From: a virus
Virus record (IMG/VR): IMGVR_UViG_3300037094_000021
Span: 1 to 22,450 of that record
Direction: 5' to 3' (one strand)
DNA: 22,450 bases
Part shown: one piece after another, positions 937-5,373 of the stretch
Layout: each line of letters opens with the position of its first letter
How positions within the stretch are numbered: position 1 is the first letter of the stretch
Program-made: the position numbers and the translations under genes
Notes under the pieces: model-generated
Seen by the model: the letters and a program-made list of their open reading frames with translations, nothing else
What the model was told of the DNA's origin: nothing
Database searches by the model: none

Positions 937-3486
937 CTAAATCTTGTTTTGTAGCCTCAGTTGCCGTTGCGCCTGGCGCATGAAGGTATTGCCGTGGGTG
1001 CGCGCCATGCTCTCAACCGATGCACCGTCGATGCCGCTGATATTTGGAGAGTAGTGAAACTGTGGACCGCCGCCGCCTTGCCCACCGTTCTGCGCCATCG
1101 AGATCACCTGCGAGATGCGCGAGTTCTCGCCAGCCGTCGCCACGGCCTCGCCCGAATGCAGCATAGCTACGCCTGTACGTGGGATGTAGTCCGCGCCACT
1201 GGCAAATGCGGCCATCGACGTATACGCGGCCCCCATGCCCGTCATTGCTGCCGCTGCTGCTGCCGCTAACGCTGGGCCGACAATTGGAATCGGAGCAACA
1301 GCAGAGGCCGCTCCCATCGATGCCACTGCCGTGAAGCTGGCGGCCTGAGCCACGTTGGTTGCTGATGTGACCGCGGTCGATGCAGCAGCGGAGGCGGCGT
1401 CACTGGTGGTCTTCGCAGTGTTGGCTGTGACGTGAGCAGCAGTCGTCGCCGTCTCGTTCCCGATGTGCCAGCCGAGTTTCGCCATGAGTGCCGCGAAGAT
1501 GGTCGAGTCCGAAGCCGCGTCCGCTCCCTTGCGGGTAGCAATGCCCCTTGCGTGTGCGACGGTAATCAGCAACTCGTGAGCCGCCCACTTCTCGCCCATC
1601 TTGAGCAGCGCGTTGATGGCCTGCATAGCCATCTGGTCGTACATTTTTTGGAAGGCGACGCCCATGCGCTGTCCGCTCTGGAGCCAGTGGTCGGTGAAGG
1701 TGTTCAGCGGGCCAGTGACCGAGGCGAGAGCTTTGGTATAGACCTGCTGGATGCGCATCGCATCCTGATCCTCGATGATTTGGCGTTCTTTGACGCCCTT
1801 CTCGGTGGCGGCCGTGATCTGATCCTGGAGCTCCTGCCACTCGGCGAGCTCCTTGGTGTCGAGACCAATCGGCCCCATTGGGGCAATGGATTTCTGTCGC
1901 GCTTGAAGGGCCGAGACATCCTTGTTCTGCTCAGTCTGCGATGCCCCCAATTTCTCGCGTTCAGCTTCAGCCTCTGAAATCTGCCCCATGCGCCGCCGTA
2001 GTTCGGCGACCCGCATGGTGGATTCATAGTCGCTGGCATTGAGCCTGATCTTGGCTTCGAGCGCCTTGTTGATGCGCTCGTCGGCCTCGGCTTCGGTCTC
2101 TTTGTGCTCCATGAAGTCGGGCGGAAGCGGCGCGGGCTCGGGGCCGACCTGCGATTTCGCGAGCATGGGCTTGATCTTGCCCTTCTCGCTGATCTCTTTC
2201 TGGAAGGCCTCTTCCGCGCGCAGCAATTGCTCGTGGTGGGTGTTGGTGGTGCGGACGACCTCTTCCCAGTACATGACGGTCGCGCCCAGGCTCTTGCCCT
2301 GCTCGAGCTGCTGCGCGGCGAGGATGTCTTCGTAGTTGACGGCCTTCTCGTGGGGTTCCTTGGGCGGCTTCGGTGGAATGGCGCCGTGTTCACCCTGGAG
2401 TTTCTGAAGCTGGATCGTCTTCTCGATATGAGCCTGCTCCAACTCCTGCACCTTCATCAGGTGCTCGGTGGCCGCAATCTCGTTGGCGAAGTTGGTCTCG
2501 ATGCCCGGCGCACCATCCTTCTCTCCGCTCTGCCATCCCTTGAGCTGGTTCAGGCGGATTTGCAGGGAGGCAAAGAAGGACGTGGACTCGTTCAACTGGT
2601 CCTGCGCGGTTTTCGCCTCAGAGAGATGGCGGGCGTGTTCGCTCACCATCGTCTGCTCGTAGGCGGTCCCGGTTCCACCCATGCCCGTCGTGAGCACTTG
2701 CTTGGTGGTGTCTGCGGCCATCTCCTTGACGACAGCTTCGGCCTTCTTCAGGTCCGCATCGAGCTTTGCATCGAGCTTGTCGACTTCCTCGATGGCCTCG
2801 TCGATGGCCAGCTTTACGCCACTGACCGGCTTGTGCTCCAGCTTCTCGATGGCGATCTGCTCTTTGTCGATCTGGACGTCGAGGGAATCGTTCTGCATCC
2901 GCATGGAGTCGATGTCCGAGCGGATGTCTTCGGCCAGCTTGCGCGCGCCCTCGCCGCCGATGTCGAAGGCCGTGTAGAGCTTTTCCCCGAGGCTGACAAC
3001 GATCATGCCCAGCCCGACAGCGCCGAACGCAGCAGCCGCGAACCCTGAGCCCAGAACCGAACCCAGCCCGAGGCTCTGTACGGCGAACTGTCCGGCCGCG
3101 CGGGCCGCGCCCATCGTGGAACCTTCGAGGACGCGCATGTTCATCGAGGCCACACTGGCCTGCTGAGACATCTCGCGGGTCGAGGCGGCGGCGGCCTTGG
3201 ATGCAGCAGCATCGGCAGCCTTGGCAGCCTGGAGTTGCTTCAGGGCGGCGACCGCCTGCTCCATGGCGGGCACGACAGCCACGTTGGCCGCGGCCAGGTC
3301 CTTCAACTGGGTATTCAGGAAGGTGGCGGCTGCACCGCTCTCTTTCGCGGCGGCTTGGAAGGCCTCCAGGGCAGCGGCTCCGCGCGCGGCGAAGTCCTGC
3401 ATACTGGCGACGGCTTCCTTCTGCTCTGACTTCAATTGCGAGAAGTCGGCTTTGACGCCAACACTTACCAGATAGCCGTCGGGCAT
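937..3486 (-). CDS. Tail tape measure protein (849 aa)
   Basis: This protein sets siphophage tail length and is packed inside the tube before DNA ejection. It is the longest gene in the window and sits between tail chaperones and DUF2460, the fixed position of tape measures. The sequence is largely alpha-helical and Ala/Glu/Lys/Gln-rich (about 15-110, 200-640). It has two hydrophobic stretches, one near residue 145-180 (GLGSVLGSGF...VGLGMIVVSL) and an Ala/Gly-rich one near 730-790, as expected for segments that insert into the host membrane. I start it at ATG 3486, which follows TTGGAGGCAAC. A TTG at 3513 would add nine residues but places the ribosome-binding site inside the gene. By the usual rule of about 0.15 nm per residue the tail would be near 125 nm. 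Confidence 0.88.
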   Translation of the reverse strand: MPDGYLVSVGVKADFSQLKSEQKEAVASMQDFAARGAAALEAFQAAAKESGAAATFLNTQLKDLAAANVAVVPAMEQAVAALKQLQAAKAADAAASKAAAASTREMSQQASVASMNMRVLEGSTMGAARAAGQFAVQSLGLGSVLGSGFAAAAFGAVGLGMIVVSLGEKLYTAFDIGGEGARKLAEDIRSDIDSMRMQNDSLDVQIDKEQIAIEKLEHKPVSGVKLAIDEAIEEVDKLDAKLDADLKKAEAVVKEMAADTTKQVLTTGMGGTGTAYEQTMVSEHARHLSEAKTAQDQLNESTSFFASLQIRLNQLKGWQSGEKDGAPGIETNFANEIAATEHLMKVQELEQAHIEKTIQLQKLQGEHGAIPPKPPKEPHEKAVNYEDILAAQQLEQGKSLGATVMYWEEVVRTTNTHHEQLLRAEEAFQKEISEKGKIKPMLAKSQVGPEPAPLPPDFMEHKETEAEADERINKALEAKIRLNASDYESTMRVAELRRRMGQISEAEAEREKLGASQTEQNKDVSALQARQKSIAPMGPIGLDTKELAEWQELQDQITAATEKGVKERQIIEDQDAMRIQQVYTKALASVTGPLNTFTDHWLQSGQRMGVAFQKMYDQMAMQAINALLKMGEKWAAHELLITVAHARGIATRKGADAASDSTIFAALMAKLGWHIGNETATTAAHVTANTAKTTSDAASAAASTAVTSATNVAQAASFTAVASMGAASAVAPIPIVGPALAAAAAAAMTGMGAAYTSMAAFASGADYIPRTGVAMLHSGEAVATAGENSRISQVISMAQNGGQGGGGPQFHYSPNISGIDGASVESMARTHGNTFMRQAQRQLRLQNKI

Positions 3487-3505: not shown

Positions 3506-3519
3506 CCGCCCAAAGGCGG
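3506..3519 (-). terminator. Weak hairpin plus CTTTTC ahead of the tape measure ribosome-binding site
   Basis: On the coding strand a CCGCC/GGCGG stem with a four-base loop is followed by CTTTTC and then ATTGGAGGCAAC-ATG. The stem is short, so it is at best an attenuator. It is one of three similarly built elements in the window. Confidence 0.35.
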
Positions 3520-3525
3520 ATCGCT

Positions 3526-3717
3526 TTACTGCTCCCGCTCCCCGTACTCGAAGAACCGGGAGACCATGAGCCGCAACGGTGGGTGCGCATTCAAGCCTTC
3601 GATTATCCATTCCACGTCCGGCCAGGGAATTTCCCAGACCTCCAGCGGACTGATGCCTCCATCCCCGACAAGGCGAGTGTAGATGCGCCGGAAGTCTATC
3701 GGCTCGCCGTTGCTTCC
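3526..3717 (-). CDS. Tail assembly chaperone T segment, read by -1 frameshift from the upstream gene
   Basis: This open frame of 63 codons begins at the GGG-GGA slip point and ends in TAA (3526). It reads GSNGEPIDFRRIYTRLVGDG then EVWEIPWPDVEWIIEGLN and FFEYGEREQ. A small W/P/E-rich segment after the G-type protein and before the tape measure is what GpT-type extensions look like. An ATG exists in this frame at 3768, but it has no ribosome-binding site and would run 51 bases through the upstream frame. A -1 shift joins residue 85 of the G protein to this segment, giving a 148-residue fusion. No known domain is recognisable in the segment itself. The role is inferred from position and from the frame relation. 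Confidence 0.6.
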   Translation of the reverse strand, partial: GSNGEPIDFRRIYTRLVGDGGISPLEVWEIPWPDVEWIIEGLNAHPPLRLMVSRFFEYGEREQ

Positions 3718-3971
3718 CCCAGCTTGATTCCGCTGACCTCGGCGACTTGGGCGAAGAGCTCGTTGCATTCGATCACGGTGAACTCTTCCTCGAACCAGAC
3801 CGAGCTAACTGCGGCGCCCGTCGGATCGGCGTTCTTCATCGAATCGACACAGGCGGTGACGGTTGCATCGAGGGCATTTCCGGCGTTGACCGTCTCGGTC
3901 ATGCGGCGAAGCTGCCCCATCTTGAGCGGCGCGATCTCGACCGCGCGCCCGGTTGAAAGTGTGACGTTCAT
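3696..3971 (-). CDS. Tail assembly chaperone G (91 aa)
   Basis: Probable lambda GpG-like chaperone that coats the tape measure during tail assembly. Start ATG 3971 follows ATGGAGGCAGTT. An ATG at 3983 lies inside that ribosome-binding site and is rejected. The protein starts MNVTLSTGRAVEIAPLKMGQ, a short beta sheet followed by helices. This resembles the small phage chaperones that begin with a strand pair and an L-x-x-G-x-L/R motif. It ends KLGEATASR. The second chaperone frame overlaps its last codons (see the frameshift site), and the tape measure follows, the classical G-GT-H order. A terminator-like hairpin sits just upstream of its ribosome-binding site, which could reduce its level relative to the tail tube. 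Confidence 0.7.
   Translation of the reverse strand: MNVTLSTGRAVEIAPLKMGQLRRMTETVNAGNALDATVTACVDSMKNADPTGAAVSSVWFEEEFTVIECNELFAQVAEVSGIKLGEATASR
3712..3722 (-). promoter_or_regulatory. Candidate -1 ribosomal frameshift site (chaperone G to GT)
   Basis: The message reads AAG CTG GGG GAA GC. A tRNA-Gly on GGG can slip back one base onto GGG because five Gs run together (complement 3716-3720). The A-site GAA to GGA re-pairing is imperfect, so this is a weaker slip site than lambda's GGGAAAG. Downstream, GGAAG and CTTCC could pair as a stimulatory stem. Support comes mainly from the overlap and position of the two frames. Confidence 0.5.
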
Positions 3972-3992
3972 AACTGCCTCCATAGGTGAAAA

Positions 3993-4083: not shown

Positions 4084-4836
4084 TTACACGCTTGCGAAGT
4101 TGTCGATGTAGATCACGCCCGTGCCCGGATCGAAAGCGGAGATGTCGAACTCCGGAATGACAATGTCGCCCTGCTTGAAGTCCATGCTCAACTTTGAGCT
4201 GGAGCACTTGAAGAACTTCTTCGCGTACCCGCCATCCTGGGGGTTGGCCACGTAGACCTCGAAGTACGGGGATTCCTGCTGCACGTTGTTGTTGACCGGG
4301 ACAGAGATGCCCGTGGCAATGGCGTAGGTGTAGTTGATGACCACCTGTGCCGCCGCGTCGGCCGACGCGAAGGTGTAGACGCCCGTTGCCGAGTTCACCG
4401 CGTACTGGCCCTGCGTGGGACCGGAGGCGACCAACTTCAGCGGCGTGAAAGGAGACGCGGCGTAGTTGACGCCGAAGTCCTCGGCGAACGTGCCCGAGCT
4501 TGGCGGCGCAATCGTGACCTGGAACGGCGTGGTTGGAACCGTGGCGATGAAGCCGAAGTAGGGCAGCGTGGCCCCGGTGGCAGCCACTTGCCCGTGGTAG
4601 ATTTCAGCGAAAATCTGGCCGCTGATCTGCGCCGCCTTGGCCTTGATGTCGATCTTGCGTTGTCCGCGGAAGCCGCGCAGCGGGGCTGAGTTCTGCCCGA
4701 AGAGTTTCTTCTCGTCGAAGCTATCGCCCACGCTCACATCCTGGAGCTGGCCGAACACTCTCGGCGTGGGCGTCGGATTTGCGGTCGTTGCGGCGGCCCG
4801 ACCGGCGAGCCACCCTGCACCAAAACTGTTCATCAT
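4084..4836 (-). CDS. Major tail tube protein (250 aa)
   Basis: Forms the stacked rings of the non-contractile tail tube. The N-terminal part has FGQLQDVSVGDSFDEKKLFG then RGQRKIDIKAKAAQISGQIF. This is the pattern of phage major tail proteins: a loop about recognition of the next subunit, then a lysine-rich strand-helix. The C-terminal part (about 165-250) is beta-rich with KKFFKCSSSKLSMDFKQGDI and VIPEFDISAFDPGTGVIYID. The middle (about 85-160) looks like an added beta domain. The ribosome-binding site GAGGAG serves two adjacent ATGs at 4836 and 4833. The second has better spacing, so the first Met may be absent. No tail sheath gene accompanies it, which supports a siphovirus tail. Confidence 0.75.
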   Translation of the reverse strand: MMNSFGAGWLAGRAAATTANPTPTPRVFGQLQDVSVGDSFDEKKLFGQNSAPLRGFRGQRKIDIKAKAAQISGQIFAEIYHGQVAATGATLPYFGFIATVPTTPFQVTIAPPSSGTFAEDFGVNYAASPFTPLKLVASGPTQGQYAVNSATGVYTFASADAAAQVVINYTYAIATGISVPVNNNVQQESPYFEVYVANPQDGGYAKKFFKCSSSKLSMDFKQGDIVIPEFDISAFDPGTGVIYIDNFASV

Positions 4837-4848
4837 TTCGCTCCTCGT

Positions 4849-5373
4849 TTAGATCGTGAGAATTGTGAATGGGACGACCGCGATGGAAAGTTGCGTGCCG
4901 GCGCCGGGCAGTCCGTTGATGCGCTCGACACGCCCCTTGGCTACAACCGAATCGACCAGCCCGCCAAGGGTCTGCTTATTGCCCGGAAGTGTGGGCGTGG
5001 CAGCGTTCAGGACTGCCGTGATGGCCAGATTGAGCGCCTGCGTGGGGATCTGCGTTTCCTGGCCCACTTGCTGCTTTGCGCCGGCGCAGGAGACGATGAC
5101 GACCACGTCCACGCGCAATTCGTACTTGGTGCGCGCCTGAACCGTCTGAATCGCTGGCACGATTTCAAAGCCGAGTTCCTCCTGAAAGAGAGCCGGCAAC
5201 TGGCCCGGCGTGAGCGTCACCCAGTCGCGTGGCACTCGAGACTCGACCGCGAAGGTGGTCGGCTCTCCGCTGACCGGGTCGGTCCAGGTGCAGGCCTGCA
5301 CATTGCCGCTGTCGGTGAGCAGCGCGAAGAAGGCCGCATAGATCGGTTCGAGATTGACGACGCCGTTGTTCAT
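4849..5373 (-). CDS. Tail terminator / tail completion protein (174 aa)
   Basis: Probable protein capping the tail tube at the head-proximal end. ATG 5373 overlaps the upstream stop as ATGA and follows GGAG at suitable spacing. A GTG nine bases upstream lies on the ribosome-binding site and is rejected. The fold pattern is the usual one for tail terminators: an N-terminal helix (NLEPIYAAFFALLTDSG), a strand with W, a long middle region ending in LRVDVVVIVSC, helices (LNLAITAVLNA), then a strand RVERINGLPG and a final TQLSIAVVPFTILTI strand. No catalytic motif is expected. The position between the gp10-like protein and the tail tube agrees with this role. Confidence 0.65.
   Translation of the reverse strand: MNNGVVNLEPIYAAFFALLTDSGNVQACTWTDPVSGEPTTFAVESRVPRDWVTLTPGQLPALFQEELGFEIVPAIQTVQARTKYELRVDVVVIVSCAGAKQQVGQETQIPTQALNLAITAVLNAATPTLPGNKQTLGGLVDSVVAKGRVERINGLPGAGTQLSIAVVPFTILTI

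Follow-up and report, generated by a model that had tools for sequence, protein, structure and literature searches.

A 22,450-nucleotide (nt) stretch of virus DNA (positions 1 to 22,450 of IMG/VR record IMGVR_UViG_3300037094_000021, hereafter the window) carries between its tail tube and tape measure genes two overlapping reading frames, G and T, from which two tail assembly chaperones are very probably made from one start by a −1 programmed ribosomal frameshift. The prediction is derived from the sequences of the window and its relatives. The putative slip site is the heptamer G_GGG_GAA (3714..3720, minus strand; zero frame CTG GGG GAA at 3722-3714), and its assignment as a G/GT programmed frameshift site is very well supported by its in-phase conservation, so that what had looked like an isolated oddity is a signal of the whole family, seen in more than 100 distinct G/T pairs from phages and prophages.

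The genes concerned are encoded on the minus strand; the tail tube comes first, followed by the chaperone frames (G/T) and the tape measure. The G frame (3696..3971), a predicted tail assembly chaperone of 91 amino acids (aa), begins with ATG at 3971, 5 nt after the Shine-Dalgarno sequence GGAGG (3977..3981), and its stop codon is TAG at 3698-3696. The −1 frame, open between 3804 and a stop at 3528-3526, overlaps G, and taken together with the G stop at 3696 this leaves a shift window of 109 nt. The message at the overlap reads ATC AAG CTG GGG GAA GCA ACG GCG AGC CGA TAG, and a −1 shift at CTG GGG GAA joins 85 G residues to the 63 codons of the T domain (3526..3717), resulting in a predicted GT fusion of 148 aa (3526..3971). 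The two frames, the message CTG GGG GAA and the length of the fusion had been described in an earlier note on this DNA and have all been reproduced from the sequence, as has the imperfect match at the A-site, where two of three positions agree. Of the listed zero-frame positions in the shift window, CTG GGG GAA alone permits full re-pairing in the P-site (3/3). The site does not follow the canonical X_XXY_YYZ pattern, as its A-site is fully paired only when a middle G:U pair is counted. The T domain contains a PP motif, which is invariant in an alignment with 32 relatives.

Regarding conservation, a search with G has returned six loci of 86-100% identity and a seventh (L007) of 69%, and CTGGGGGAAGC is retained in all seven. 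Used as search queries, the alignments of G and of T have returned only these seven known contigs. A larger sample has been obtained by a search with a tail-tube alignment, from which 54 genome contigs were taken along with the best 80 of 534 virus-contig matches; four phage records (one Acinetobacter, two Brevundimonas, one Pseudomonas) were added from seven whose tube matched with 35-38% identity, which together with the window makes 139 loci. A pair was accepted when, after the tube had been found, a G frame was present with a −1 extension that contained the PP motif of T. This rule has identified a G/T pair in 129 of the 139 loci, 113 of them distinct after 16 loci were dropped as exact repeats of another locus over the compared stretch. 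The ten loci without a pair have been inspected by eye. Four of these (L080, L101, L122, L131) end shortly after the tube gene, two (L028, L072) have no recognisable pair, and L134 is unclear. L089 contains G_GGG_GAA with a T that lacks PP, and L079 has a run of nine As in the slip region near position 2487 (CTC AAA AAA AAA GCG), where transcriptional slippage is possible too. L069, from a metagenome-assembled genome (MAG) of Methylococcales, encodes G and T in a single frame of 183 aa (approximately 1091-1640) in which no slip site has been seen; the frameshift may truly have been lost there, or the MAG may be in error.

Among the 113 distinct pairs, 101 have an in-phase G_GGG_GA(A/G) inside the shift window. 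The alignment of chaperone pairs at the G run, which the earlier note had proposed as a check, has therefore found the run conserved and bears out the G/GT arrangement that the note had recognised. The remaining 12 pairs comprise nine with G_GGA_AA(A/C/G), which is of the lambda type, one with G_GGG_GAT, one with A_AAA_AAA, and L145. The phase is strict: over the shift windows of the 113 pairs, GGGGGA(A/G) occurs 106 times in phase and 0 times in 6,682 positions for each of the other two phases, and as in-frame controls it has been counted once in 6,891 codons of G upstream and nine times in 25,772 tail-tube codons. When clustered at 70% identity the pairs form 77 groups, of which 68 include a member with G_GGG_GA(A/G), and at 40% identity 34 of 39 groups do. 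The site is still found where the shift window is as narrow as 19 nt (L030) or 13 nt (L051), and in L015 the zero-frame stop follows directly after the GAA of the heptamer. In the ungapped alignment of the window with six close relatives (160 columns), GGGGGAAG is the longest invariant run, and all others extend over at most 2 columns. Similarly, in an alignment of 46 G proteins with a mean identity of 24%, the invariant columns are Met1 and the slip-site Gly85, and Gly81 and the slip-site Glu86 are nearly so. The base preceding the G run is G in 0 of the 101 pairs. Avoidance of a harmful six-G run has been considered and set aside: in front of the other GGG codons of these genes, just 2 of 49 codons that end in G are NGG, so that six Gs are rare there as well and no special selection is claimed.

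From these data we infer that slippage takes place, and that it does so in a minority of passages. Most ribosomes would read G to its stop and release a 91-residue gpG. The others, carrying tRNA-Gly on GGG and tRNA-Glu on GAA, would slip back by one base; the former tRNA would re-pair perfectly in the P-site (GGG to GGG), the latter would re-pair with GGA through a middle G:U pair, and translation would continue through the T domain to a 148-residue gpGT. By analogy with lambda, gpG may bind the tape measure protein, and gpGT may connect the tape measure protein to the tail tube subunits.

The contribution of the A-site codon has been evaluated across the relatives. When that codon is left unspecified, 154 in-phase G_GGG_NNN sites are found in the 113 shift windows, 90 with GAA and 16 with GAG, the next most frequent codon being AGC with 7; upstream of the shift windows in G, GAA or GAG follows an in-phase G_GGG in 1 of 27 cases. 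Taking the first site in each of the 101 pairs, the A-site codon is GAA in 89 and GAG in 12, compared with 440 GAA and 582 GAG in the whole G genes. Counted over 67 clusters, the ratio GAA:GAG is 56:11 at the sites vs 220:334 in the background, with a p-value that is to be read as indicative because the sequences are related. Moreover, the two types of heptamer replace each other in one homologous group, in which L046 has GGG GAG and L032, L048, L059, L124 and L142 have GGA AAA or GGA AAG; both heptamers are equally far from the G stop, and the start of T after the shift, Asp-(Phe/Trp)-Asp, is shared. The bias towards GAA/GAG and these swaps with the lambda type together argue that the A-site tRNA matters, and the event is likely a tandem slippage in which tRNA-Glu would re-pair with GGA via the middle G:U pair.

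These counts also bear on the mechanism that the earlier note had raised as a possibility, a slippage in the P-site on GGG. In its pure form, tRNA-Gly alone would slip on GGG while the A-site is empty or indifferent, so that any codon might follow. The perfect re-pairing in the P-site next to an A-site identity of just 2/3 is in line with it, as are the 48 of 154 in-phase sites at which other codons follow, and L067, which has G_GGG_GAT and no GAR (GAA or GAG) site. However, GAA or GAG follows at 106 of 154 sites inside the shift windows vs 1 of 27 outside, and in the 67 clusters GAA exceeds GAG well beyond the background ratio. Among the 12 pairs that lack a GAR site, any G_GGG_NNN is found in just three (L067, L082, L145), and nine use G_GGA_AA(A/C/G), where with AAA and AAG both tRNAs can re-pair. 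Slippage of the P-site tRNA alone is thus rather improbable. The heptamer of L067 lies at 5278 and places an Asp codon in the A-site, where re-pairing on GGA is expected to be worse.

Tandem slippage on a programmed site is also to be weighed against explanations in which no ribosome changes frame. One such explanation takes the G run as the Shine-Dalgarno sequence of a separately started T protein. In its favour, the T frame of the window has an ATG at 3768, upstream of the run; against it, none of the 101 relatives with the site has a T-frame start codon (ATG, GTG or TTG) within 3-15 nt past the run, an outcome that also speaks to the refuting condition set by the earlier note, a ribosome-binding site of the second frame's own in relatives. 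The first 20 T codons contain ATG in 9 of 101 and any of the three start codons in 30 of 101, and initiation would not require the run to keep so strict a phase with G (106:0:0), which makes this alternative very improbable. Equally little can be said for transcriptional slippage, by which a G would be added to or lost from the mRNA: the site is a homopolymer, and for L079 with its nine As such a process is plausible, but a run of five Gs is short for slippage of RNA polymerase, and the conserved part includes the GAA of the A-site and gives way in some relatives to GGGAAA heptamers without a long run. Least probable of all is that G and T are one frame broken by decay or by sequencing or assembly error, since the −1 arrangement recurs with constant phase in 129 of 139 loci (113 distinct) from isolates, MAGs and virus contigs, and the single frame of L069 is the one locus that would suit it.

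Possible stimulators of the shift have been sought on both sides of the heptamer. Downstream, the folding energy of the RNA has been expressed as z relative to shuffles, for stretches of 40, 60 and 90 nt at the site and for control stretches of 60 nt located 150 nt away. The mean z of 101 sites has been found at −0.87 (40 nt), −1.09 (60 nt) and −1.71 (90 nt), compared with −0.26 and −0.14 for the controls. At offsets 12-19 the 5′-arm pairing is higher than in shuffles (n = 67 clusters); this arm starts at offset 12-14, which corresponds to a spacer of 5-7 nt, and the pairing probability at offset 14 is 0.86 vs 0.56 in shuffled sequences. With z below −2 in just 20 of 67 clusters, the strength of the stem varies among members, L031 and L077 being examples of a strong one. 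Upstream, Shine-Dalgarno cores 8-21 nt before the site have been observed in 29 of 67 clusters, whereas five intervals farther upstream have them in 4, 3, 5, 13 and 11, and the starts of the cores peak at −14 in the family. Glycines conserved in G and T probably explain in part the G at −11 and the GGC at offsets 12-14, and consequently both signals may be partly coding.

An element resembling a Shine-Dalgarno sequence and a stem are therefore present at the level of the family, and both are weak in the window. There, the candidate internal Shine-Dalgarno-like stimulator is a weak one, GAGGT at 3736..3740 (−20 to −16, 15 nt before the heptamer), which in an alignment of seven sequences is kept in L005, L006 and L007 and absent in L019, L075 and L076. 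The candidate downstream stem (3672..3708) is formed by a 5′ arm at 3708-3702 and a 3′ arm at 3678-3672, with a spacer of 5 nt. In the clade of the window, 85.7% of the cells of this 7-bp stem are paired and three of seven pairs have changed on both sides; 7 of 500 shuffles reach its pairing score and 10 its covariation score, neither of which is a probability, and pairing falls to 29-45% when the partner is slid by 1-3 columns. A second helix is predicted in the same clade (columns 65-68 with 78-81). Taken together, the evidence for the 7-bp stem as a real structure is suggestive, and where the earlier note had suggested a search for a downstream pseudoknot, a stem has been recovered at the level of the family, with only this modest one in the window's own clade.

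The identity of G as a chaperone has been approached through its structure. The AlphaFold model, built from 46 sequences, has a mean predicted local distance difference test (pLDDT) score of 88, though its confidence is low from around the slip site onward, and resembles chaperones: its top matches among solved structures are YqbN (3klu, Z 7.5), which we take to be a chaperone, and the HK97 chaperone (2ob9, Z 6.7), and Foldseek ranks 2ob9 first in the PDB (probability 0.96, E 0.24). Among 219 viral matches (E up to 10, none ≤0.001), several of the best 50 are named tail assembly chaperones, with the GT protein of N15 at rank 29. Considering these modest fold scores together with the gene order, G likely has the fold of a tail assembly chaperone, as judged from the model. 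Sequence searches have given less: tblastn of the window G against the phages collection has found no match, a profile from the G alignment has given no credible hit among solved structures (best E 0.055), and the G proteins of eight relatives have only Pfam matches below the curated cut-offs. PHROG 7947, listed there with function unknown, is matched by the G of five of the eight relatives tested (L015 6679-6990, L018 6666-7010, L023 4769-5086, L036 4791-5195 and L038 4657-5022), and it may be a tail assembly chaperone family, so that a function can be suggested for it.

Several observations weigh against the frameshift assignment or limit its reach. The 12 of 113 pairs without G_GGG_GA(A/G) include L145, which has no clear site, and two candidate GGG GAR sites lie in the shift windows of L029, L087, L133 and L143, where the choice is not unique. 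Elsewhere in the G genes of the 67 clusters, Gly-Glu is encoded five times as NNG GGG GAR and 39 times otherwise, and in L069 G and T share one frame. As the sample has been built from tail-tube relatives, the rates apply to this family. In the window itself, GAGGT is located farther upstream than the family peak, and the fold downstream of the site is unremarkable (z −0.88 at 80 nt, +0.63 at 60 nt, −1.03 at 90 nt). Pfam has returned nothing for G, T or the tape measure of the window, and PHROGs nothing for G or T; the fold matches of the G model are modest, with Z below the tool's caution line of 8 and no Foldseek match ≤0.001 in either library.

The order of the genes (tube, G/T, tape measure) speaks for the frameshift assignment. 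Upstream of G/T, the gene at 4084..4836 (minus strand) matches PHROG 8234, where the function is left blank, and its role as tail tube has been deduced from gene position. The downstream gene at 937..3486 (minus strand) matches phrog_2854, tail length tape measure, with E 2e-6; it starts with ATG at 3486 preceded by GGAGG at 3495-3491, and the list of open reading frames (ORFs) has TTG at 3513 instead. Between T and the tape measure lies a gap (3519-3490 in the window, 4477-4812 in L005) that resembles an insertion spot. In the window it holds a terminator-like hairpin, CCGCCTTTGGGCGG, followed by CTTTTC, and no other content, the hairpin being not stronger than in shuffles; the near-identical L005 has there an ORF of 111 aa with a start like a signal peptide, and the equivalent gap contains a GDSL esterase in L015 and a small ORF in L018. 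The contig of L019, with 63% tube identity, has been binned as Acidobacteria, which gives a hint of a possible host of the window's phage.

Such a signal can be missed by annotation, as the Acinetobacter and the two Brevundimonas records enter G and T individually as hypothetical proteins. The natural G_GGG_GAA, G_GGG_GAG and G_GGA_AAR sites in homologous genes further provide a test bed for how far mispairing in the A-site is tolerated. Tentatively, one may regard G_GGG_GAR as a non-canonical class of slip site, read by tRNA-Glu via U35:G, which could have arisen independently in unrelated chaperone genes of actinobacterial and proteobacterial phages, would be interchangeable with G_GGA_AAR, and would work together with an upstream Shine-Dalgarno element and a stem 5-7 nt downstream. 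AAG is preferred at the lysine slip sites of E. coli; if this proposal were true, the excess of GAA over GAG would imply that the rate is tuned by wobble in the zero frame, in the opposite direction to that preference.

Comparable signals have been described in several systems. In lambda, according to a review (PMC5009743), G/GT slips at G_GGA_AAG, the two products are found in a molar ratio of 30:1, and T links to the tail subunit. As in lambda, a short and a long chaperone that share one start are predicted for the window through −1 slippage; the window differs in the heptamer, in the protein sequences and in the imperfect re-pairing of the A-site. Signals of the dnaX type (PMC3711429) combine a Shine-Dalgarno-like element, a slippery heptamer and a hairpin; all three parts are present at the family level here, with another gene, another heptamer and weak stimulators in the window. 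For two HK97-like chaperone genes outside the window's family, another study gives frameshifting of 6-7% in E. coli, and in P2-like Burkholderia phages the string GGGGGAA has been described as a ribosome-binding site. A literature search for GGGGGAG with frameshift has returned no translation-related work, as judged by title.

A close single case is gp14/gp14A of Corynebacterium phage phi16 (PMC5506516), for which the authors propose an internal Shine-Dalgarno GAGG and an H-type pseudoknot. As in the window, GGGGGAA is situated near the gene end and between the genes for the major tail protein and the tape measure, and the phi16 record has confirmed the heptamer in the same codon phase. The family profiles of G, T and tube match none of three phi16 proteins (best E 0.072), and common descent is thus not shown. 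On a larger scale, PRFect (PMC10885494) lists GGGGGAA as the 'fivetwo' slip motif with about a thousand actinobacteriophage cases, reports 2,397 of 2,476 joined genes to be tail assembly chaperones, and has already raised G:U pairing at the second tRNA for this motif. The window agrees with 'fivetwo' in heptamer, −1 direction and tail assembly chaperone gene. In contrast to that set of actinobacteriophages, the family of the window consists mostly of phages and prophages of Proteobacteria, as labelled in the records, has GAG in the A-site in 12 of 101 pairs and exchanges the heptamer with the lambda-type GGGAAA. The heptamer as such has already been published, and the family of the window constitutes a large further set, with GAG accepted in the A-site and lambda-type heptamers taking the place of G_GGG_GA(A/G) in some members.
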